This document shows, one piece after another, positions 31,079-40,694 of a stretch of DNA of 64,000 nt (its first letter is position 1; each line of letters starts with the position of its first letter). The notes under the pieces were generated by a model. The model made no database searches. It worked only from the letters and a program-made list of their open reading frames with translations, and was not told where the DNA came from. This stretch comes from Chitinophagaceae bacterium (GTDB lineage Bacteria > Bacteroidota > Bacteroidia > Chitinophagales > Chitinophagaceae): NCBI GenBank assembly GCA_003168265.1, contig PMSV01000008.1, positions 186,001 to 250,000 of the forward strand, read 5' to 3'. The position numbers and the translations under genes were made by a program.

Positions 31079-32533
31079 ATGGCCTCTACCGCACCTGGCT
31101 TCAAACCCGCACTAGGCTTACTGGACGCAACCATGGTTGTGGCCGGCTCAATGATCGGCTCCGGCATATTCATTGTGAGCGCTGATATTACCCGCCATGT
31201 AGGTAGCGCAGGATGGCTGATCATGGTCTGGGTGATCACAGGTGTCATGACTGTCATTGCAGCCGTTAGCTACGGTGAATTAAGCGCCATGTATCCTAAA
31301 GCGGGTGGACAATACGTGTACCTGAAGGAAGCATTTAACCCCCTGGTCGGATTCCTCTACGGATGGAGTTTTTTTGCAGTGATCCAGACTGCCACGATTG
31401 CTGCGGTTGGTGTGGCTTTCGCCCGTTTCACGGCTTATTTTATTCCTGCCTTTAGCGAGAAAAATATTGTTTTCATTTGGCATCCGGGCTTTGATTTTAA
31501 AATATCTGCGGCCCAGCTCATTTCCATTTCAGTCATCATCTTACTCACCTATATTAACACCAGGGGCGTTAAGACGGGAAAGACCATACAGACCCTGTTT
31601 ACCTCGACCAAATTACTGGCCCTTTTTGGGCTGATCGTTTTTGGTTTCCTGGTTGCCAAAGAAAGCTTCTGGTCTGAGAATTGGAAGAATGGATTTCAGG
31701 GGGCACAGGATCTTGGAGCAAAAGATGCGGCGGGAGCGCTTGGCGCCACAGGCTGGGTATCGATCAGCGGGGTTGCCCTGCTGGGTGCGATTGCAGCTTC
31801 CATGACAGGTTCCATCTTTAGCAGTGATGCCTGGAACAATGTGACTTTTATTGCCGGAGAAATCAAGAACCCGAAGCGTAATGTGGGTTTGAGCCTCTTT
31901 CTGGGCACCCTGGTCGTTTCCGTGATATATATAACGACCAATCTCATGTATGTGCGGGTTTTGCCTTTGCAGCATGTAGCTTTTCCACAGGAGGACAGGC
32001 TGGCCGTCGCCGCTGCCCATACTATCTTCGGAGCTGCCGGCCGATCGATTATTGCGGTCCTGATCATGGTCTCCACATTTGGTTGTATCAATGGGCTGGT
32101 CTTGGCCGGGGCCAGGGTTTATTATACAATGGCCCAGGATGGTCTCTTTTTCAGGCCTGCAGCTAACTTAAACCGCAATTCCGTTCCCCAGTGGTCGTTA
32201 TGGTCCCAATGTGTGGTGGCGGCTCTTTTATGCCTCAGTGGCAGTTATGGACAATTGCTTGATATGATCTCCTTTGTAGCGGTAGGCTTCTATGTTTTGA
32301 CCATCATAGGAATTTTTATCCTGAGAAAAAAAAGGCCGGAGCTCGAAAGACCTTACAAGGCCTTCGGTTATCCTCTTTTGCCACTTCTCTATATACTGAT
32401 GGGGTCGGCTTTCTGCATTTTGCTTATCAAGTTTAAGCCTGTCTATACCTGGCCCGGACTGATCATAACCATTATCGGCATTCCGATCTATTATATTGCG
32501 GTTGGTACGCGCAAGCCCAAAGAAAACGGTTAA
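31079..32533 (+). CDS. Amino acid permease (APC superfamily)
   Basis: Inner-membrane amino acid transporter or exchanger, 484 residues with about 12 hydrophobic segments. The APC signature VAGSMIGSGIFIVSADI is at 21-37, with GELSAMYPKAGGQYVYLKEAF following in TM2-3. The C-terminal half has RKKRPELERPYKAFGYPLLP, typical of the LAT/YfnA-like group. Substrate cannot be read from sequence. It converges on the DUF885 peptidase gene, overlapping its 3' end by 4 nt, next to hydroxyproline-metabolism genes; it may import the amino acids released by that peptidase, which is an inference from position. Confidence 0.92.
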   Translation: MASTAPGFKPALGLLDATMVVAGSMIGSGIFIVSADITRHVGSAGWLIMVWVITGVMTVIAAVSYGELSAMYPKAGGQYVYLKEAFNPLVGFLYGWSFFAVIQTATIAAVGVAFARFTAYFIPAFSEKNIVFIWHPGFDFKISAAQLISISVIILLTYINTRGVKTGKTIQTLFTSTKLLALFGLIVFGFLVAKESFWSENWKNGFQGAQDLGAKDAAGALGATGWVSISGVALLGAIAASMTGSIFSSDAWNNVTFIAGEIKNPKRNVGLSLFLGTLVVSVIYITTNLMYVRVLPLQHVAFPQEDRLAVAAAHTIFGAAGRSIIAVLIMVSTFGCINGLVLAGARVYYTMAQDGLFFRPAANLNRNSVPQWSLWSQCVVAALLCLSGSYGQLLDMISFVAVGFYVLTIIGIFILRKKRPELERPYKAFGYPLLPLLYILMGSAFCILLIKFKPVYTWPGLIITIIGIPIYYIAVGTRKPKENG

Positions 32534-34266
32534 GGCAGAAATTTCCAGGAAGTGCTAAAATCTCTGTTTAGCGGCTGATTAGTCAGGATCGACCGGATCA
32601 TTTCCACCGGCATGCTGTTCAGGTGCATTATGGAATCATGGAATTGTTTATAACTCATCTTTCCGCTATCAACCATTTCTTTTTTCAGTGCATAGAATTG
32701 TTTTCCACCGATGAGATAAGCGAGCTGATAGAGCGGTGAATACCTTCCTTCAAAAGATCTCCTGACCTCGCCTTCTGCATTAGCTCTTTCATGATTGACG
32801 CTGTCCACCAGGAAGTCGATGCATTGTTGGGGTGTCCATTTTCCCAATTGATAGTTCAGGGAGAAAATGATCCTGGCGCATCGGTGCATGTGCCAGAAAA
32901 GCATGCCGATGCGATCTTCCGGAGATTTTGCGAAATGAAGGTCCCAAAGCAATAATTCCCAATATAAGCTCCATCCCTCGACCCAGAAGGGAGTCTCGAA
33001 ATTCCGATACATTCGGTAACGGGCATTCATAAAATATTCCAGGTTATGCCCTGCGATCAATTCGTGATGGACCGTGGCTCTTGAAAAATGGGGATTGTTT
33101 CCGCGCATGCTCATTAATCGGGCATCTTCATCCATGCTGTTAGTAGGATAGGAGATAATAATTTCCTCCCCGCCCAGAAAAAAGGGATTGATGAGTTGCC
33201 TTTCGGGGGTCATCATACGCATGCCCCAGGTTTCTTCCGCTAATGGAGGTATGGTGATCAGGTCATTTTTTTTCAGAAATTCAACGGATTCATTGTAAAG
33301 GCCGAGTATCATTTCGGGTTGTTTTCCCGCAGGCACATAGCTGTTCTTCACTTTTTCTTCCGCATTTTTCCAATTGTCTCCGAATCCCATTTCCGCGGAG
33401 GCTTTTAGCATTTCTGCTTCACACCATGCAAATTCCTTATTGGCAAAATCAATCAGTTCTTCCGGAGAATAAGGGATCATTTCATATTTGAGCTGGCGCA
33501 ACAGCTCTTCCCGGCCAACAGGTTGTCCGACAATCCCACTCTTGTCCGGTCTTGCCATGCTATCCCTTTTTTGGCGAAATGCTTCAGCATAATTGCCCAG
33601 CAGGCTATCAAGGGGTTTAAAGGCATTTGGCACCCACCAGCTAAACAGGGGGTCATAACCGTTATAGAATTGAAAAACGGATTCAAGGCAGGCGCGGACT
33701 AAACGGATATTGTCCGTTGCATCGAAACTATTATCAACCTGAATCGTTTTGTTTTCGCTCAGACTTTTTTTGAGCGAATCAATTTGTTTGCAGAATTGAT
33801 TCCATTGCCTGGAGATGATTTCACCGTCAGGCGCTTTTCCTCTTCTGCGCAATTTCTCCAATGTAAATAGCTCATCGCCAAATGGGATCCAGGATTTGAT
33901 TTTCTCATAGGCAGCGGCTTTTTTCCTGGCAAGCTCTATTTTGGCATTTAAATTTCTTTTAAAAAGGATATAGTCCACTTTACATTCCTGGGGCAACTTA
34001 TCAAAATCAATACCCCTTAGTTTCTCAAGATATTCTTTGTCGAGTTTGACCAGCCTTTCCCTCATTTCCGGTGTGGAAAAGCCATTATAGTCGTTATTGT
34101 AGGATTGTATGGAATTGGGGGAATAGAATCTTTCCAATGCATCCTGGTCCGCCTGGAACTGTTGCATCAGAGAAGGCATTTCACTGCAGGGCACATAATC
34201 AGAAAGAGATTGGGCGCCGGCTTCGGAAAATATGCTTAGGAGGGCCAGCCAGATTGTAATTCGCAT
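32530..34266 (-). CDS. Secreted DUF885 family protein (putative zinc peptidase)
   Basis: 578 residues, with signal peptide MRITIWLALLSIFSEAGAQ. The C-terminal half has the DUF885 signature: HELIAGH at 401-407, a metal-binding HExxxGH arrangement, followed by RYRMYRNFETPFWVEGWSLYWE, where the downstream Glu is a likely further ligand. Members are thought to be metallopeptidases related to the M32/M2 fold, but few are characterised. It lies 42 nt downstream of the proline racemase-family gene and is probably co-transcribed with it. Its secreted location would suit hydrolysis of oligopeptides in the periplasm. Confidence 0.85.
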   Translation of the reverse strand: MRITIWLALLSIFSEAGAQSLSDYVPCSEMPSLMQQFQADQDALERFYSPNSIQSYNNDYNGFSTPEMRERLVKLDKEYLEKLRGIDFDKLPQECKVDYILFKRNLNAKIELARKKAAAYEKIKSWIPFGDELFTLEKLRRRGKAPDGEIISRQWNQFCKQIDSLKKSLSENKTIQVDNSFDATDNIRLVRACLESVFQFYNGYDPLFSWWVPNAFKPLDSLLGNYAEAFRQKRDSMARPDKSGIVGQPVGREELLRQLKYEMIPYSPEELIDFANKEFAWCEAEMLKASAEMGFGDNWKNAEEKVKNSYVPAGKQPEMILGLYNESVEFLKKNDLITIPPLAEETWGMRMMTPERQLINPFFLGGEEIIISYPTNSMDEDARLMSMRGNNPHFSRATVHHELIAGHNLEYFMNARYRMYRNFETPFWVEGWSLYWELLLWDLHFAKSPEDRIGMLFWHMHRCARIIFSLNYQLGKWTPQQCIDFLVDSVNHERANAEGEVRRSFEGRYSPLYQLAYLIGGKQFYALKKEMVDSGKMSYKQFHDSIMHLNSMPVEMIRSILTNQPLNRDFSTSWKFLP

Positions 34267-34308
34267 GGTAGTTGTTTATTTTTTTGAGGCTATGATAGGT
34301 GATCAGGA

Positions 34309-35310
34309 CTAAATAACCTGGAACCCATGAGCATAGGGGTCTTCGTCATCGATAAGGATATGGTTAAACCCTGTCACGATTGCCCAACCTTCAATGCTTG
34401 GAATGATGGCGGGTCTGCCTGCCACAGTCGTTTCCTCTTCGATCCTCCCGATAAACCGGGAGCCAATGATGCTTTCGTGAATGAACAGGTCTCCTTTTCT
34501 TAGTTGGCCTTTCGCATGCCATTGCGCCATCCTGGCGGAGGTTCCGGTTCCACAGGGTGAACGGTCAATGGCCTTGTCCCCATAGAATACGGCATTGCGG
34601 GCAGTCGCATTCTGATCAATGGCTTTTCCTGTCCAAAGCATATGACTCAGGCCCTTTATGTTTTCATTCTCGGGGTGTATGAATTCGTATTTTTCGTTGA
34701 GTCGCTGACGACAGACCCTGCCCCAGCTTATCAACTGATCGGCTTTGAAGTTTTCCAGTCCGGGGAAATTTTTTTGCGGATCTACAATGGCGTAAAAATT
34801 TCCTCCATATGCGACATCCACGCTGATTATTCCGAGATCGGGGCACTCTACTTCCAATCCCCCGGCAGCCAGAAAGGATTTCACATTTGTCAGTCTGACC
34901 GATTTGATCTTTTTTCCTTCCTGCTGATAGCTCACTAATATCAGGCCGGCAGGTGTTTCCAGTCGAAGCAATCCCGGTGTTCCGGGCACAATCAATCCTT
35001 GTTCCAGGGCAATCGTCACGGTCCCGATCGTTCCATGACCGCACATCGGCAGACAGCCGCTGGTTTCAATGAAGAGAATGCCCATATCGTTTTTTTCGTC
35101 CTGAGGCGGATAGAGGATACTCCCGCTCATCATATCGTGTCCCCTTGGCTCAAACATCAAACCCTTTCGGATCCAGTCGAATTCCCGAAGGAAATGAAGA
35201 CGTTTTTCCATCATATCTTTTCCCTTCAGCAAGGGGCCTCCACCCGCCACTAATCTGACGGGATTGCCACAGGTATGGGCATCTATGCAAAAAAAAGAGT
35301 GGGTAGCCAT
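34309..35310 (-). CDS. Proline racemase-family enzyme, probable 4-hydroxyproline 2-epimerase
   Basis: 333 residues from the ATG at 35310 (MATHSFFCIDAHTCGNPVRL); a TTG at 35322 overlaps the upstream stop codon and is less likely. Both catalytic cysteines are present: C90 in PMCGHGTIG and C253 in DRSPCGTGTSA. The Cys/Cys pair fits proline racemase or 4-hydroxyproline epimerase and excludes trans-3-hydroxyproline dehydratase, which has Thr in place of one Cys. Family knowledge: most bacterial Cys/Cys members outside clostridia and trypanosomes epimerise trans-4-hydroxy-L-proline to cis-4-hydroxy-D-proline. The DHDPS-family gene 8 nt upstream supports this. It probably acts in the cytoplasm, as there is no signal peptide. 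Confidence 0.88.
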   Translation of the reverse strand: MATHSFFCIDAHTCGNPVRLVAGGGPLLKGKDMMEKRLHFLREFDWIRKGLMFEPRGHDMMSGSILYPPQDEKNDMGILFIETSGCLPMCGHGTIGTVTIALEQGLIVPGTPGLLRLETPAGLILVSYQQEGKKIKSVRLTNVKSFLAAGGLEVECPDLGIISVDVAYGGNFYAIVDPQKNFPGLENFKADQLISWGRVCRQRLNEKYEFIHPENENIKGLSHMLWTGKAIDQNATARNAVFYGDKAIDRSPCGTGTSARMAQWHAKGQLRKGDLFIHESIIGSRFIGRIEEETTVAGRPAIIPSIEGWAIVTGFNHILIDDEDPYAHGFQVI

Positions 35311-35318
35311 CTGTTTAT

Positions 35319-36272
35319 TCAAGATTGGTTTTCCATGGCCTGTAATGCAATATTTTTTAAGTGGAGATATTCAGGCAACGCCGGCCTATTTGCCAGCGCG
35401 GTTTCAATTATCCGGACTACCCGATTCCTTTCTTCCCCTTCTAATAGTAAACGGGGAGCCCTCACGTATTCTGAACCTATTCCGGTTGCCTGGGCTGCCA
35501 GTTTGATATATTGGACCAGTTTGGGATGAATGTCAAGTTCAAGTAAGGGGAGGAACCAGCGGTAAATATCCAGAGCTTCCTTCAATTTCCCCGCTTTTGT
35601 CAATCTAAATATGGCGACCGTTTCTCTTGGGAAGGCGTCTACCAGGCCTGCCACCCAACCATCGGCACCCGCTGCCAGACTCTCGAATGCCAGGGGGTCT
35701 ACCCCCGTCAGGATCTTGAAACGATTGCCGAAGCGGTTGAACATACGGGTCACATTAGAAATATCACGGGTTGATTCCTTCACAGCCTGGATATTGGGAA
35801 ATGCAGCCAGTTCCGCGAACATATCCAGTGTAACCAGGATCTTATAATCAACGGGATTGTTGTAAATCATGATCGGAAGGCTGCTACTGGTGGCGACGGC
35901 TTTGAAATATTCGACTGTTTCCCGGGCATCGGCGCTGTAGCGCATCGGAGGAAGAAGCATCAGCCCATCTGCACCGTTCTGCCCGGCTTCTTCGGCTGCT
36001 TGTATTGCCGACCTGGTGGACTGCTCGGCAATATTGACGATCACGGGGAGATGGGATCCGCAAATCTTTTTAGCATAGAGGGCCAATTGATTTTTTTCAC
36101 TGTTCTGCAATGTGCTTGCTTCACCTAAAGAGCCGCCGATCACAATGCCGTCAACGCCGGCCTCGATCTGGGCCTTCATGTTGAGGGCAAATAAATCTAA
36201 ATCTATTTCTTCGTTATGTTTGAATGGAGTGAGGAGGGCAGGATATACGCCGATCCAGCTTAGGTTTGCCAT
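35319..36272 (-). CDS. DHDPS/NAL-family protein, probable 1-pyrroline-4-hydroxy-2-carboxylate deaminase
   Basis: 317 residues from the ATG at 36272 (MANLSWIGVYPALLTPF), the usual family start; an ATG at 36290 only adds unconserved residues. Class I aldolase barrel: Tyr137 in MIYNNPVDY and the Schiff-base Lys165 in AVKESTRD. The substrate loop reads GGSLGEAST instead of the GTTGE of true DapA, so it is unlikely to be the lysine-biosynthesis enzyme. In the bacterial trans-4-hydroxyproline pathway, a DHDPS-family deaminase acts after the epimerase and the D-hydroxyproline dehydrogenase; adjacency to the epimerase makes this the best guess. Other possibilities are a sugar-acid lyase or an N-acetylneuraminate lyase-like enzyme. 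First gene of the three-gene minus-strand unit. Confidence 0.82.
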   Translation of the reverse strand: MANLSWIGVYPALLTPFKHNEEIDLDLFALNMKAQIEAGVDGIVIGGSLGEASTLQNSEKNQLALYAKKICGSHLPVIVNIAEQSTRSAIQAAEEAGQNGADGLMLLPPMRYSADARETVEYFKAVATSSSLPIMIYNNPVDYKILVTLDMFAELAAFPNIQAVKESTRDISNVTRMFNRFGNRFKILTGVDPLAFESLAAGADGWVAGLVDAFPRETVAIFRLTKAGKLKEALDIYRWFLPLLELDIHPKLVQYIKLAAQATGIGSEYVRAPRLLLEGEERNRVVRIIETALANRPALPEYLHLKNIALQAMENQS

Positions 36273-36287
36273 GCTTTGGAAATTTGG

Positions 36288-36295
36288 CAAATTTA
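36288..36295 (-). promoter_or_regulatory. Candidate -7 box for the hydroxyproline unit
   Basis: On the minus strand TAAATTTG matches TAnnTTTG. It is only 15 nt before the ATG at 36272, so the transcript would have a very short leader. No clear TTTG lies at the expected distance upstream. Confidence 0.4.
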
Positions 36296-36323
36296 ATCAG
36301 TTCCTGATTCATTTTAATCCTCT

Positions 36324-36331
36324 TAAATTTG
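36324..36331 (+). promoter_or_regulatory. Candidate -7 box for the GH127 pair
   Basis: TAAATTTG on the plus strand, 27 nt before the ATG at 36359. It is identical to the box on the opposite strand at 36288-36295, so the 86-nt divergent gap carries two back-to-back copies. The -33 element is not obvious. Confidence 0.4.
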
Positions 36332-36358
36332 ATTAGGTTCTGTCAACAACTAAATACG

Positions 36359-38329
36359 ATGAATAGATCTTTCTTCCTGGCTATATGCATGCTGTTTTGT
36401 GCATTAGTTTCAGCTCAGAGTCCTTCCTCAGGATTGGCTGAATTCAAGCCGGTAAAATTCTCAGCGGTCAGTATTAATGACAGTTTCTGGAAACCCAAGA
36501 TCGGTAAGGTGGAATCGGTAACCATCCCGGTATGTATCGACCAAACCGAGGTCAAAACGCCCAGGATCAGGAATTTTGAGATCGCAGCCCATTTGAAGAA
36601 AGGAAAATTCGAAGGGATCTTTTATGACGATTCGGATGTCTATAAAGCGCTTGAGGCCATCAGCTATGTGTTGGCCAATCGCCGGGACAGCGTACTTGAA
36701 AAAAAGGCGGACGAGTGGATCGACATCATCTCAAAGGCCCAATTGCCGGATGGTTATCTCAATACCTATTTTACACTAAATGGCCTGGATAAACGCTGGA
36801 CGGATATGAGCATGCATGAGGATTATAATGGAGGCCATTTGATAGAAGCGGCCGTTGCCTATTATGATGCCACAGGGAAAAGAAAATTATTGGATGTTGC
36901 CATCCGCTTCGCCAATCATTTTGATTCCTTGTTCGGACCGGGGAAAAAGCATTGGGTCACCGGCCACCAGGAATTGGAATTGGCCCTTGTTAAGTTATAC
37001 CAGGTCACAAATGATCGAAAATACCTGAACCTTGCCGACTGGCTACTGAGCGAGAGGGGGCATGGTTATGGAGTCGGATATACTTGGACCGACTGGAAGG
37101 ACACAGCCTATACCCAGGACCTCGTGCCGGTGAAGCAGCAGCAAAAGATAACGGGCCATGCGGTAAGGGCGATGTATATGTATACGGGTGCCGCGGACGT
37201 GGCCGCCGAAACAGGCGATACCGGCTATATGCATGCCATGAAGTCGGTATGGGAGGATGTGGTCTACCGGAATATGTACCTGACCGGAGGAATTGGTTCT
37301 TCCGGGAACAATGAAGGATTTTCAAATGATTTTGACCTGCCCAATGCGGAAGCTTATTGCGAGACCTGTGCCTCGGTAGGCATGGTCTTTTGGAATCACC
37401 GGATGAATTTGCTTACCGGGGAAAGCAAGTATGTTGATGTTCTGGAAAGGACTCTGTACAATGGAGCGCTGGACGGGATTTCTCTTAAAGGGGACCGGTT
37501 CTTTTATGGCAACCCGCTTGCCAGTTCCGGTAAGAACCAGAGAAAGGCATGGTTCGGCACGGCCTGCTGCCCAGCCAATATCGCGAGGCTTATCGCGTCC
37601 CTTGGAAATTATATCTATGCCCAAAACGACCAGGGCATCTGGATCAATCTTTTTGTGGGAAGCAGCAGCAGCATCCCAGTGGGAAAGACCAAAGTTCCGA
37701 TAAGCTTACTGACGGATTATCCCTGGGATGGCCAGGTAAAGATCAGTATTTCCCCCGAAAGAAAAACCAGGTTTGCGCTTCATGTCAGAATACCGGGCTG
37801 GGTTCAGGGAGAGGCTGTCCCGGGCGGCCTATACAGGTTTACGGATACTTCAGGCGTCGCTTATTCCATTCAATTAAACGGGCATGAAATAGCATGCAAA
37901 ATGGAAAAGGGCTATGCCATTATTGAAAGGCAATGGCAGAAAGGCGACCTGGTGAAAATCAGGTTTCCCATGGAGGTCAGGCAGGTGATCAGCCGTAGCG
38001 AGCTTAAGGCAGACGAGGGCAGGGTGGCTTTGCAGCGCGGACCACTGGTCTATTGCGTAGAAGGCGCAGACAACGGCAATAGTGCCTGGAATTTCATTTT
38101 ACCAGTTAATCAACCGATTGCTACTGAAAAAATGAATGTGGAAGGAGAGAGCATTATCGCTTTGACTGCGGAAGTGCCGGAGTTGGCTGTGGATCCTTCG
38201 GGCAAGTCCGTTCAAACGGTCAATAAGCAAATGATCGCTATTCCTTATTATACTTGGTGTAACCGGGGGCGCAATGAAATGCAGGTATGGCTCCCAGTTA
38301 GTTTTAAGAATGTGAGGGTAAATGAATGA
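36359..38329 (+). CDS. GH127 beta-L-arabinofuranosidase (DUF1680), secreted
   Basis: 656 residues from the ATG at 36359, which begins the signal peptide MNRSFFLAICMLFCALVSAQ; an in-frame TTG at 36329 falls in the putative promoter box. The alpha/alpha barrel follows, then a beta-sandwich C-terminal part. The key residues of HypBA1-type enzymes are conserved in order: Glu319 (acid/base position), Glu335-x-Cys337 in AYCETCASVG, and Cys403-Cys404 in TACCPANIAR, the latter supplying zinc ligand and nucleophile. Spacing of the first three (16 and 2 residues) equals that of Bifidobacterium HypBA1 (E322, E338, C340). It is expected to release beta-L-arabinofuranose from arabinosides linked to hydroxyproline. 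It is probably periplasmic. The second GH127-like gene starts 14 nt downstream. Confidence 0.92.
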   Translation: MNRSFFLAICMLFCALVSAQSPSSGLAEFKPVKFSAVSINDSFWKPKIGKVESVTIPVCIDQTEVKTPRIRNFEIAAHLKKGKFEGIFYDDSDVYKALEAISYVLANRRDSVLEKKADEWIDIISKAQLPDGYLNTYFTLNGLDKRWTDMSMHEDYNGGHLIEAAVAYYDATGKRKLLDVAIRFANHFDSLFGPGKKHWVTGHQELELALVKLYQVTNDRKYLNLADWLLSERGHGYGVGYTWTDWKDTAYTQDLVPVKQQQKITGHAVRAMYMYTGAADVAAETGDTGYMHAMKSVWEDVVYRNMYLTGGIGSSGNNEGFSNDFDLPNAEAYCETCASVGMVFWNHRMNLLTGESKYVDVLERTLYNGALDGISLKGDRFFYGNPLASSGKNQRKAWFGTACCPANIARLIASLGNYIYAQNDQGIWINLFVGSSSSIPVGKTKVPISLLTDYPWDGQVKISISPERKTRFALHVRIPGWVQGEAVPGGLYRFTDTSGVAYSIQLNGHEIACKMEKGYAIIERQWQKGDLVKIRFPMEVRQVISRSELKADEGRVALQRGPLVYCVEGADNGNSAWNFILPVNQPIATEKMNVEGESIIALTAEVPELAVDPSGKSVQTVNKQMIAIPYYTWCNRGRNEMQVWLPVSFKNVRVNE

Positions 38330-38342
38330 TCGATAAAAAAGC

Positions 38343-40694
38343 ATGAGCAAAAAATTTATTATTTATTTTTTTCTCCTGACCGGACTTATCCGGCCCTGTC
38401 TCGCGCAGTCGGATGCGGTGATCAGGACTCCCGTGATTGACATGAAGGCAATTGCATTTGATCTTAATGAAATCAGGTTGCTGAAAAGTCCTTTCAAGCA
38501 TGCAATGGAAATGGATGCGGCTTATCTGCTGACCATCGATCCTGACCGGCTGCTATTCCGTTTTTATGAATATGCCGGACTTCCTGAAAAGGGCGTCGTA
38601 TATGGAGGATGGGAGAGCGAGGGGCTTTCCGGACATACTACGGGGCACTATCTTTCTGCCTGTTCTATGATGTTTGCGAGCACAGGGGACAAAAGATTTT
38701 TGGAAAGAGTCAATTATATCGTGACTCAATTAGAAAAATGCCAGAAGGCTAAAAAGACCGGCTATGTGGGCGCCATTCCCGGCCAGGATTCGATTTTCGA
38801 AAAACTGTCAAGGGGTGAAATCAAAACCGGAGGTTTTGACCTAAACGGCGGCTGGTCCCCCTGGTACACAGTTCACAAGCTGATGGCGGGACTGATTGAT
38901 GCTTATATCTATTGCCAAAATAAGACCGCACTCCGTGTAGCGGTCGGAATGGCAGAATGGACTGGTCATATTTTGAAAAACCTCGATAACAGCCAATTGC
39001 AAAAAATGCTGTCCTGTGAATTCGGCGGGATGAGCGAAGTCCTTGCTAATATCTACGCCTGTACGGGAAATCAAAAATGGCTCAGCCTCTCAGGCAAATT
39101 CTACCATAGGGCCATTCTGGATCCATTGGAGGGTGGCAAGGATTCCTTGTCTGGTAAGCATTCCAATACGCAGATCCCGAAAATTATCGGCTGCGCCCGA
39201 CGTTATGAATTGATCGGCGATGTGGCTGAGAAAAAAATTGCCGAAAATTTTTGGGAGATCATGGTCAGTCACCACAGTTACGCAATCGGCGGAAACAGTG
39301 ACCATGAGTACCTGGATGATCCGGATAAATTAAGCGACTACCTAAGCGAAAGCACTTGTGAAACCTGCAACACCTACAACATGCTTAAGCTCACCCGGCA
39401 TCTTTTTTGCTGGCACCCTGACAGCCGGCTGGGCGATTATTATGAACGCGCATTGTATAACCATATTCTTTCCTCTCAAAACCCCCAAAATGGGATGATG
39501 TGCTATTTTGTTCCCCTGAGCATGGGGGCCAGAAAAGAATTCAGCGATTCCTTCAATACTTTCAGTTGTTGCGTAGGCAGCGGCATGGAGAACCATTCCA
39601 AATATGGAGAAGGCATCTATTACCAGGGCAGTGACGGAAGCCTCTATGTCAACCTTTTCATCCCTTCTGAATTAAATTGGAAAAAAAGGAATATCCTTAT
39701 CCGGCAACTTAATGATTTTTCTGCCAGTGATACGGCCCGATTCGAAATGGAAACGTCCAAACCCCTTTCTTTTATCTTCCGTATCCGCAAGCCAGCTTGG
39801 GCTGATTCCGGGATAAGCCTTACTGTTAATGGGAAAATCCGTCCTGTGAATATTGATGCTAACGGCTTTATCGTGGTGACCGGCAATTGGAAGAACCATG
39901 ACAGGATCGAGCTTGTTTTGCCGATGCATATCCATTTGGAGCCGACTCCGGATAATGCAGGAAGGGTTGCGTTACTCTATGGCCCCTTTGTGCTGGCAGG
40001 AAACCTGGGCAATAAGGCACTGGACGAAACTTATGATATACCTGTATTTATCACAGACAACCGTCCCGCTTCGGAGTGGATCAAACCTGTTTCGGGAGCC
40101 GCTTCATTGGTCTTTCAAACCATTGGAACGGGCAGACCCGCTGATGTGACTTTTACTCCGTTTTATGAGAACTATAATGATTTTTACAGCATTTACTGGG
40201 ATATTTTCACCAAAGAAGGCTGGCAAAAAAGGGAGCTTGATTATCTTGAAGAAAAACACCGCCAGAAGGATATTGAGGACAGGACCGTCGACCTGATCAG
40301 GATCGGCGAAATGCAACCTGAAAAGGATCACAGGCTTGAGAGCCAGAACTCATATACCGGCGAGGAGCAAGGTAGGAAATCAAGAGTAGCTCATTCGGGA
40401 GGTTATTTCTCCTTTGATATGAATGTGGATAGCGCCGGAGAAAATGTCTTACTGGTCACCTATTGGGGCGGTGAAAACCACCGCACCCATGAAGTTCTGA
40501 TTGACGGCATGGTCATTGCGACCCAATCCATCAATCACGATCGCCCTAACCGCTTTTTTGATGCAGAATACCCTATCCCCCGAAAACTCAGCGATGGAAA
40601 AAAACAGATTCGGATTAGTTTCCAAACACCGGAAGGCAGGACGGGTGGGGATGTTTTCGGGTGCAGGATCCTGAGAAAAGAGGCCGGAAAATAA
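38343..40694 (+). CDS. Second DUF1680 glycoside hydrolase (GH127/GH146-type), secreted
   Basis: 783 residues with signal peptide MSKKFIIYFFLLTGLIRPCLAQ. The same catalytic set is present as in the previous gene: Glu322 in NSDHEYLDD, Glu340-x-Cys342 in STCETCNTYNMLKL, and Cys409-Cys410 in FSCCVGSG. It is about 125 residues longer, with a C-terminal domain (roughly 620-783) of DUF4986-like type that includes a beta-rich module ending in FGCRILRK. The CNTYNMLKLTRHLF block resembles the GH146 branch of beta-L-arabinofuranosidases, but GH127 and GH146 cannot be separated here by eye. It forms a two-gene unit with the upstream enzyme, likely cleaving complementary beta-arabinosyl linkages. Confidence 0.9.
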   Translation: MSKKFIIYFFLLTGLIRPCLAQSDAVIRTPVIDMKAIAFDLNEIRLLKSPFKHAMEMDAAYLLTIDPDRLLFRFYEYAGLPEKGVVYGGWESEGLSGHTTGHYLSACSMMFASTGDKRFLERVNYIVTQLEKCQKAKKTGYVGAIPGQDSIFEKLSRGEIKTGGFDLNGGWSPWYTVHKLMAGLIDAYIYCQNKTALRVAVGMAEWTGHILKNLDNSQLQKMLSCEFGGMSEVLANIYACTGNQKWLSLSGKFYHRAILDPLEGGKDSLSGKHSNTQIPKIIGCARRYELIGDVAEKKIAENFWEIMVSHHSYAIGGNSDHEYLDDPDKLSDYLSESTCETCNTYNMLKLTRHLFCWHPDSRLGDYYERALYNHILSSQNPQNGMMCYFVPLSMGARKEFSDSFNTFSCCVGSGMENHSKYGEGIYYQGSDGSLYVNLFIPSELNWKKRNILIRQLNDFSASDTARFEMETSKPLSFIFRIRKPAWADSGISLTVNGKIRPVNIDANGFIVVTGNWKNHDRIELVLPMHIHLEPTPDNAGRVALLYGPFVLAGNLGNKALDETYDIPVFITDNRPASEWIKPVSGAASLVFQTIGTGRPADVTFTPFYENYNDFYSIYWDIFTKEGWQKRELDYLEEKHRQKDIEDRTVDLIRIGEMQPEKDHRLESQNSYTGEEQGRKSRVAHSGGYFSFDMNVDSAGENVLLVTYWGGENHRTHEVLIDGMVIATQSINHDRPNRFFDAEYPIPRKLSDGKKQIRISFQTPEGRTGGDVFGCRILRKEAGK

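Follow-up and report, generated by a model that had tools for sequence, protein, structure and literature searches.

Half of a probable split system for the use of hydroxyproline-rich glycoproteins in a Chitinophagaceae bacterium

Introduction

Extensins are an abundant, protein-rich component of plant walls. Can one set of bacterial genes serve the sugar, the peptide and the amino acid of such glycoproteins together? The question is raised by six genes at positions 31079-40694 of a 64,000-nucleotide stretch of contig PMSV01000008.1 from a Chitinophagaceae bacterium (the window), where two genes for secreted proteins of the PF07944 family stand divergently from the gene for a 4-hydroxyproline epimerase. 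An earlier interpretation made from the letters of this DNA (the sequence-only reading) had proposed that the locus couples de-arabinosylation, peptide hydrolysis and hydroxyproline (Hyp) catabolism. Comparative genomics supports this coupling well; the activities and joint induction are predictions. We consider that the window locus is probably half of a split system for the use of hydroxyproline-rich glycoproteins, and the best reading is a modular locus in which the three processes are coupled, with extensin-type glycoproteins as the presumed substrates.

Papers are cited here for the parts of their text that were accessible. The Hyp residues of extensins bear up to four L-arabinofuranose (Araf) units, three beta-linked and an outer one alpha-1,3-linked, and the serine residues bear alpha-galactose (PMC7933510, PMC6085000).

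Gene content of the window locus

Apart from one family label corrected below, the six genes and the families that the sequence-only reading had named for them were borne out by coordinates and by Pfam, which assigns the proteins to AA_permease_2, DUF885, Pro_racemase, DHDPS and, twice, PF07944. On the minus strand are the genes of a DUF885 protein (32530..34266; PF05960, 1.3e-40), a candidate zinc metallopeptidase, of 4-hydroxyproline 2-epimerase (HypE; 34309..35322) and of a DHDPS-family protein (35319..36290; PF00701), probably a pyrroline-4-hydroxy-2-carboxylate deaminase. On the plus strand are the genes of an APC-family amino acid permease (31079..32533; PF13520, 6.1e-56), of a probable beta-L-arabinofuranosidase of glycoside hydrolase family GH127 (36329..38329; PF07944, PF20736, PF20737) and of a GH146-type probable beta-L-arabinofuranosidase with a C-terminal DUF6805 (38343..40694; PF07944, PF20736, PF20620). 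Signal-peptide-like N termini were recognised by eye on the DUF885, GH127 and GH146 proteins. The likely ATG codons of the DHDPS and GH127 genes are inside the called open reading frames, at 36272 and 36359; if these starts are right, the divergent intergenic region is 86 bp long (36273..36358). The permease matched no NCBIfam model over that model's own cut-off. The whole genome contains one PF05544 gene, which encodes the epimerase, two PF07944 genes over the cut-off and one DUF885 gene, all at this locus, and a third PF07944 match falls under the cut-off. The locus is bordered by an OmpH-like gene and a gene with an HldE-type kinase domain, and the same borders are found in a congener (locus L183).

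Hydroxyproline pathway genes

The cytosolic Hyp pathway is almost certainly present. By hidden Markov models (HMMs) and synteny, an epimerase, a D-hydroxyproline oxidase/dehydrogenase (DAO)-family protein, a DHDPS-family protein and an aldehyde dehydrogenase (ALDH), the members of the trans-4-hydroxyproline pathway, are all encoded in the genome. Against NF010578, '4-hydroxyproline epimerase' (cut-off 376), the window enzyme reaches 595.9 bits, and it stays under the cut-offs of the models for proline racemase and trans-3-hydroxyproline dehydratase. The sequence-only reading had described the DHDPS-family protein as unlike DapA at the substrate loop. This is the case, with Gly-Ser-Leu-Gly-Glu aligned to the DapA-type Gly-Thr-Thr-Gly-Glu, and identification as DapA was rejected at 164.8 bits against the dapA cut-off of 206.15.

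The DAO and ALDH genes are outside the window, on contig C24. HMMs built from the operons of relatives and run on candidates from this genome gave one clear match each, of 517 bits for DAO (next best 42) and 790 bits for ALDH (next best 60). The genome search that had been proposed for these two enzymes thus found both, and a gap in the pathway is ruled out. The order on C24 is ALDH, a six-hairpin protein and DAO, in a slot bounded by rimO and bshC. In five congeners (L184, L185, L186, L193 and L197) the same slot holds ALDH and HypE without DAO, together with DHDPS in four of the five and with GH127 in L193. In L196 the order is ALDH, HypE, GH127, six-hairpin protein, DAO and bshC, where the reading frames of GH127 and DAO are broken. 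Two further genomes, G404 and G415, have a two-locus arrangement like the one described here. The simplest reading is that a gene set kept together in other genomes was split in this genome, G404 and G415.

GH127 and GH146 enzymes

Both PF07944 proteins keep Glu322, Glu338-x-Cys340 and Cys417-Cys418 (HypBA1 numbering). The sequence-only reading had called both of them GH127 with a full catalytic set; the catalytic residues are indeed present in both, but only one protein belongs to that family. In the 36329-38329 protein all ten compared HypBA1 sites are conserved, and it alone has the complete set of HypBA1 His142, Tyr145, His194 and Arg273. With the Zn-Cys3-Glu site, the acid/base Glu and the sugar-binding His/Tyr/His/Arg of the HypBA1 type, it is, judged by its residues, a true GH127. 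The names of the HypBA1 sites are partly from PMC10850190. The closest solved relatives of this protein are 6ex6, 4qjy and 3wkw (43, 45 and 37% identity).

The best solved relative of the 38343-40694 protein is 5opj (506 bits; 39% identity over 682 columns), which we take to be BT0349 (the database record shows other molecule names). The protein groups with GH146 rather than GH127 in the tree, and it retains the zinc site with changes in the GH127 sugar-binding residues; by alignment and phylogeny it is GH146-type, not GH127. HypBA1, a GH127, frees Araf from Ara1-3-Hyp and XeHypBA1 prefers Ara-Hyp (PMC6085000); XeHypBA1 is a GH146 (PMC10850190). These preferences would make GH127 and GH146 a sensible exo-acting pair, and a Hyp-arabinoside is the likely substrate. 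In L193, a GH127 orthologue with 59% identity comes immediately after HypE and is encoded on the same strand.

In a genome of the same bacterial family (G300), a single 1568-residue protein (L163:661-5367) combines two catalytic regions in tandem, one GH127-type and the other GH146-type. It resembles a fusion of the two adjacent window genes and is encoded far from the epimerase of G300.

Linkage in other genomes

We collected a class-wide sample of 395 genomes, of which 44 have an epimerase match and 40 have one over the cut-off, including the genome studied here. The epimerase flanks of the other 39 were compared (two stretches are shorter than 10 kb at contig ends). In 9 of the 39 genomes a PF07944 gene stands no more than 10 kb from the epimerase, whereas gene density predicts 0.30 (tail 6.7e-12); this expectation, like the others given below, assumes even gene density and treats related genomes as independent. 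Linkage beyond this genome, the lack of which was to count against the sequence-only reading, is therefore present. The density was calculated from 73 PF07944 matches across these 39 genomes, with split matches merged and rows below 30 bits left out; one fused protein (L163) is counted twice and one counted gene has internal stops. By genus, linkage is seen in 5 of 25 genera from three families. For DUF885, linkage to the epimerase is seen in 8 of the 39 genomes against 0.26 expected (57 DUF885 rows), and in three genomes DUF885 neighbours PF07944 genes that are outside the epimerase region. GH43 served as a control. Its 283 matches in the 39 genomes gave one linked case among the matches listed, 8.4 kb from the epimerase in G080 (rows checked by eye), against 1.18 expected for all. 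That glycosidases in general might be overrepresented around the epimerase was rejected, as GH43 is not enriched among the stronger of 286 matches.

The linked GH127s fall into three supported tree groups, each mixed with unlinked GH127s, indicating that recruitment was repeated. (The GH127 of L030, a long branch in the GH127/GH146 tree, was left out of the three-group tree.) Without a shared substrate, such repeated recruitment would be difficult to account for. The 80 nearest epimerase loci, which are the closest relatives only (80 of 324 found) and overlap the class-sample and genus genomes at L095/L099, L036/L100 and L016/L182, contain DHDPS in 71 cases, ALDH in 76, DAO in 71, a permease in 32, DUF885 in 21 and GH27 in 15, and 21 of them have GH127 or GH146. 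Seventeen of these last 21 belong to one lineage, Mucilaginibacter and its relatives, and one (L018) has only a 250-residue fragment at the locus edge.

The gene arrangement varies between lineages. In L097, GH146 forms part of the operon, with HypE and DAO to either side of it on one strand; in L101 it is divergent from DHDPS. GH127 follows HypE in L193 and L196, and stands upstream of DHDPS-ALDH-HypE on one strand in L076, L102, L103 and L104, of which L076 and L102 also have GH27. Prolyl-type peptidases (DPP4, aminopeptidase P and M1) are recurrent near HypE, although the counts of peptidases other than DUF885 are without a density control. A DPP4-type peptidase accompanies GH146 in L122 and L125, and a DPP4-type gene is located between HypE and DAO in L123. 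A congener has GH127, AraC, SusD, SusC, DHDPS, HypE, DUF885 and a melibiase-like gene in one locus (L016/L182), and L183 has the layout of the window with AraC and a melibiase-like gene in addition.

Proposed function and alternatives

In the proposed scheme, the secreted GH127 and GH146 would strip beta-L-arabinofuranose from the Hyp-O-arabinosides of extensin-type plant or algal glycoproteins. The bared Hyp-rich peptide would be trimmed by the secreted DUF885 protein and general peptidases, and Hyp or a related amino acid would be imported by the permease. The epimerase, assigned by family, would convert trans-4-hydroxy-L-proline to cis-4-hydroxy-D-proline. Orthology and synteny suggest that the FAD enzyme of C24 then oxidises cis-4-hydroxy-D-proline, that the DHDPS-family enzyme deaminates the pyrroline product and that the aldehyde dehydrogenase of C24 yields 2-oxoglutarate. 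The freed L-arabinose may enter catabolism through an L-arabinose isomerase, the gene of which is on contig C8. For the Bacteroidota at large, we see roughly even chances that these loci form a recurrent modular type, in which GH127, GH146, GH27-type alpha-galactosidases, prolyl peptidases and DUF885 were independently recruited around a Hyp operon for the joint use of glycan, peptide and Hyp. The same even chances apply to DUF885 proteins being the first peptidases assigned to bared Hyp peptides and to the six-hairpin protein of C24 being an unclassified glycosidase of the same system.

Several observations weigh against the coupled system. No PF07944 gene is within 10 kb in 30 of the 39 class-sample loci, so the Hyp operon does not need one. 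Five of the nine PF07944-linked genomes are from one genus, and the tail probability therefore overstates the evidence. In the genus of the genome studied here, GH127 or GH146 is near the epimerase in only 4 of 17 further over-cut-off loci (six stretches are shorter than 15 kb). The window GH146 is 39% identical to an arabinan-type enzyme, BT0349 (5opj). No alpha-1,3-arabinosidase was found in the locus (GH121 not searched), leaving the removal of the outer Araf of Ara4 unexplained, and the three GH43 matches of the genome are all outside the locus. The 'complete use' proposed by the sequence-only reading goes too far, as the locus has neither an alpha-L-arabinofuranosidase that would take off the alpha-1,3-linked terminal Araf of Ara4-Hyp nor a regulator. 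The AraC of the relatives' loci has no close copy in this genome (best match 25% identity), and together with the lack of a regulator at the locus this means that co-regulation of the divergent units is unproven. A promoter and terminator scan of the region gave no excess over shuffles.

The Hyp genes might serve Hyp from any source (collagen or free Hyp) and the arabinofuranosidases might serve pectic arabinan or rhamnogalacturonan-II (RG-II), the two being brought together by a shared plant-debris lifestyle and no common substrate. In its favour, most epimerase loci (30 of 39) are without GH127 or GH146; proline peptidases near HypE would suit collagen too, and BT0349 is described as part of a rhamnogalacturonan-I locus and the GH127 enzyme BT1003 as an aceric acid hydrolase (PMC10850190). 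We regard it as unlikely, since the enrichment is specific: PF07944 is linked in nine genomes against 0.30 expected, and GH43, a commoner arabinan-related family, in one case among the matches listed against 1.18. GH127 or GH146 is found within Hyp operons (L097, L193, L196). In the class sample, moreover, GH146 is linked in 6 of 10 cases outside the BT0349 clade and 1 of 12 inside it (Fisher p 0.02), where the six include L176 at ~13.5 kb and the unlinked genes in the tree are a fetched subset of all unlinked genes.

The substrate could also be Hyp-arabinosylated material other than extensins, such as solanaceous lectins, arabinosylated signalling peptides or green-algal cell-wall glycoproteins. 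Hyp-arabinosides are known on solanaceous lectins (PMC6085000) and on secreted plant peptides (PMC7933510), and the lectin, signalling-peptide, algal and extensin sources are inseparable by sequence. We give this little probability, as 15 of the 80 nearest loci have GH27-type genes, whose presumed substrate would be the alpha-galactose on the serines of extensins (the window locus has no such gene). Still less credible is action of the window GH127 on the aceric acid of RG-II: its highest-scoring solved relative is 6ex6 (BT1003) and its only NCBIfam match is the aceric acid hydrolase model, yet the score is 461.7 bits against a cut-off of 950, the tree separates it from BT1003 with starred support, and two residues past His194 it has Glu for the Ile of BT1003, at a position whose role is not known to us.

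Relation to known systems

The four enzyme families are those of the known Hyp pathway (PMC4113996); in this genome they are divided between two loci and combined with secreted GH127, GH146 and DUF885 proteins. The terms 'glycosid-', 'arabin-' and 'Bacteroidetes' are absent from the main text of that genome-neighbourhood study of the epimerase family. The HypBA1/HypBA2/HypAA system of Bifidobacterium longum likewise has a GH127 beta-L-arabinofuranosidase for Hyp-linked arabinose. It takes the sugar through GH121 and an ABC importer, with Hyp catabolism unmentioned in the accessible text of PMC7263609, whereas in the window the place of GH121 is taken by GH146, and Hyp itself would be used too. 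Xanthomonas euvesicatoria XeHypAA/XeHypBA2/XeHypBA1 also includes a GH146, XeHypBA1, preferring Ara-Hyp (PMC10850190, PMC6085000), but its partners are GH43 and GH121, and 'epimerase' and 'catabol-' are absent from the main text of PMC6085000. SusCD-type polysaccharide utilisation loci of Bacteroidota share the clustering of secreted glycosidases. The sequence-only reading had set the locus apart from these; this holds for the window copy, whose six genes include no SusC, SusD or regulator gene and which joins glycosidases to amino acid catabolism, but not for the congener locus L016/L182, where SusC, SusD and AraC stand amid the same gene set.

Two genome surveys name GH127 with extensins. 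One of them, an in-silico model of Latescibacteria, likewise gives GH127 to the Hyp-linked arabinose of extensin, but it is a genome inventory, and its accessible text describes no locus joining GH127 to Hyp catabolism (PMC4454575). In our literature search, with most subscription papers outside it, no paper joined Hyp catabolism to GH127 or GH146 in one locus, and none was found on 'hydroxyproline epimerase' with 'arabinofuranosidase'. The parts belong to known families, and the searchable literature appears to contain no description of their combination as a type of locus that recurs. As far as their accessible descriptions go, the bacterial systems compared here stop at the sugar. That relatives assembled the same combination several times points to a strategy, as yet unnamed, by which bacteria use the glycoproteins of plant cell walls. 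If this is true, GH127 or GH146 beside a 4-hydroxyproline epimerase would be a genetic marker for joint users of glycan and amino acid, DUF885 would gain a testable function, and a Hyp-linked GH146 set would be distinguishable from the arabinan type.

DUF885 and six-hairpin proteins

The DUF885 protein has a His-Glu-x3-Gly-His motif and a later Glu, and these residues (H401, E402, H407 and E430) are invariant in 17 sequences. Its predicted structure resembles DUF885 structures (E 8.7e-12); the nearest fold outside DUF885 is angiotensin-converting enzyme, a weak match (E 0.019, TM 0.28; mean pLDDT 79, lower around the motif). From motif and linkage, we infer a peptidase for Hyp peptides. Among the papers listed that name DUF885, no title or abstract opening deals with its activity.

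The six-hairpin protein of C24 (L096:8361-10847) is a secreted-looking protein of 828 residues with GtaA six-hairpin, DUF5127 and DUF4964 domains (Pfam), and no solved relative was found by sequence. Its gene is between ALDH and DAO in this genome, G404 and G415, and is together with HypE and GH127 in L196 (G395). Within the genus, 26 of 30 genomes have it in some form, at least three of the matches being weak. A role as a general epimerase partner is not supported, since it is absent from all scanned epimerase flanks except L196. Its near-absence from other flanks and its wide presence in the genus indicate that the placement between ALDH and DAO is a lineage trait. In another genome of the genus (G436, L202), the six-hairpin gene has a PF07944-like gene beside it, the product of which shares 22-26% identity with the GH127 and GH146 of the window.

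Further observations

Serine dehydratase was rejected as a regular partner of the Hyp loci, being found in L190 and L131 only. Its genes there (L190:14615-16192 and L131:14219-15799) are inside Hyp loci, two cases that are suggestive for Ser-Hyp repeat proteins. A DUF5695 protein is encoded behind DUF885 in a Hyp locus at L098:3281-6040, and DUF5695 is found in 5 of the 39 class-sample loci. Two large secreted DUF3857/transglutaminase-like proteins are encoded directly upstream of the Hyp operon at L046:3185-7195 and in other Dyadobacter loci, and each DUF3857/transglutaminase-like cluster occurs in 17 of the 80 nearest loci.

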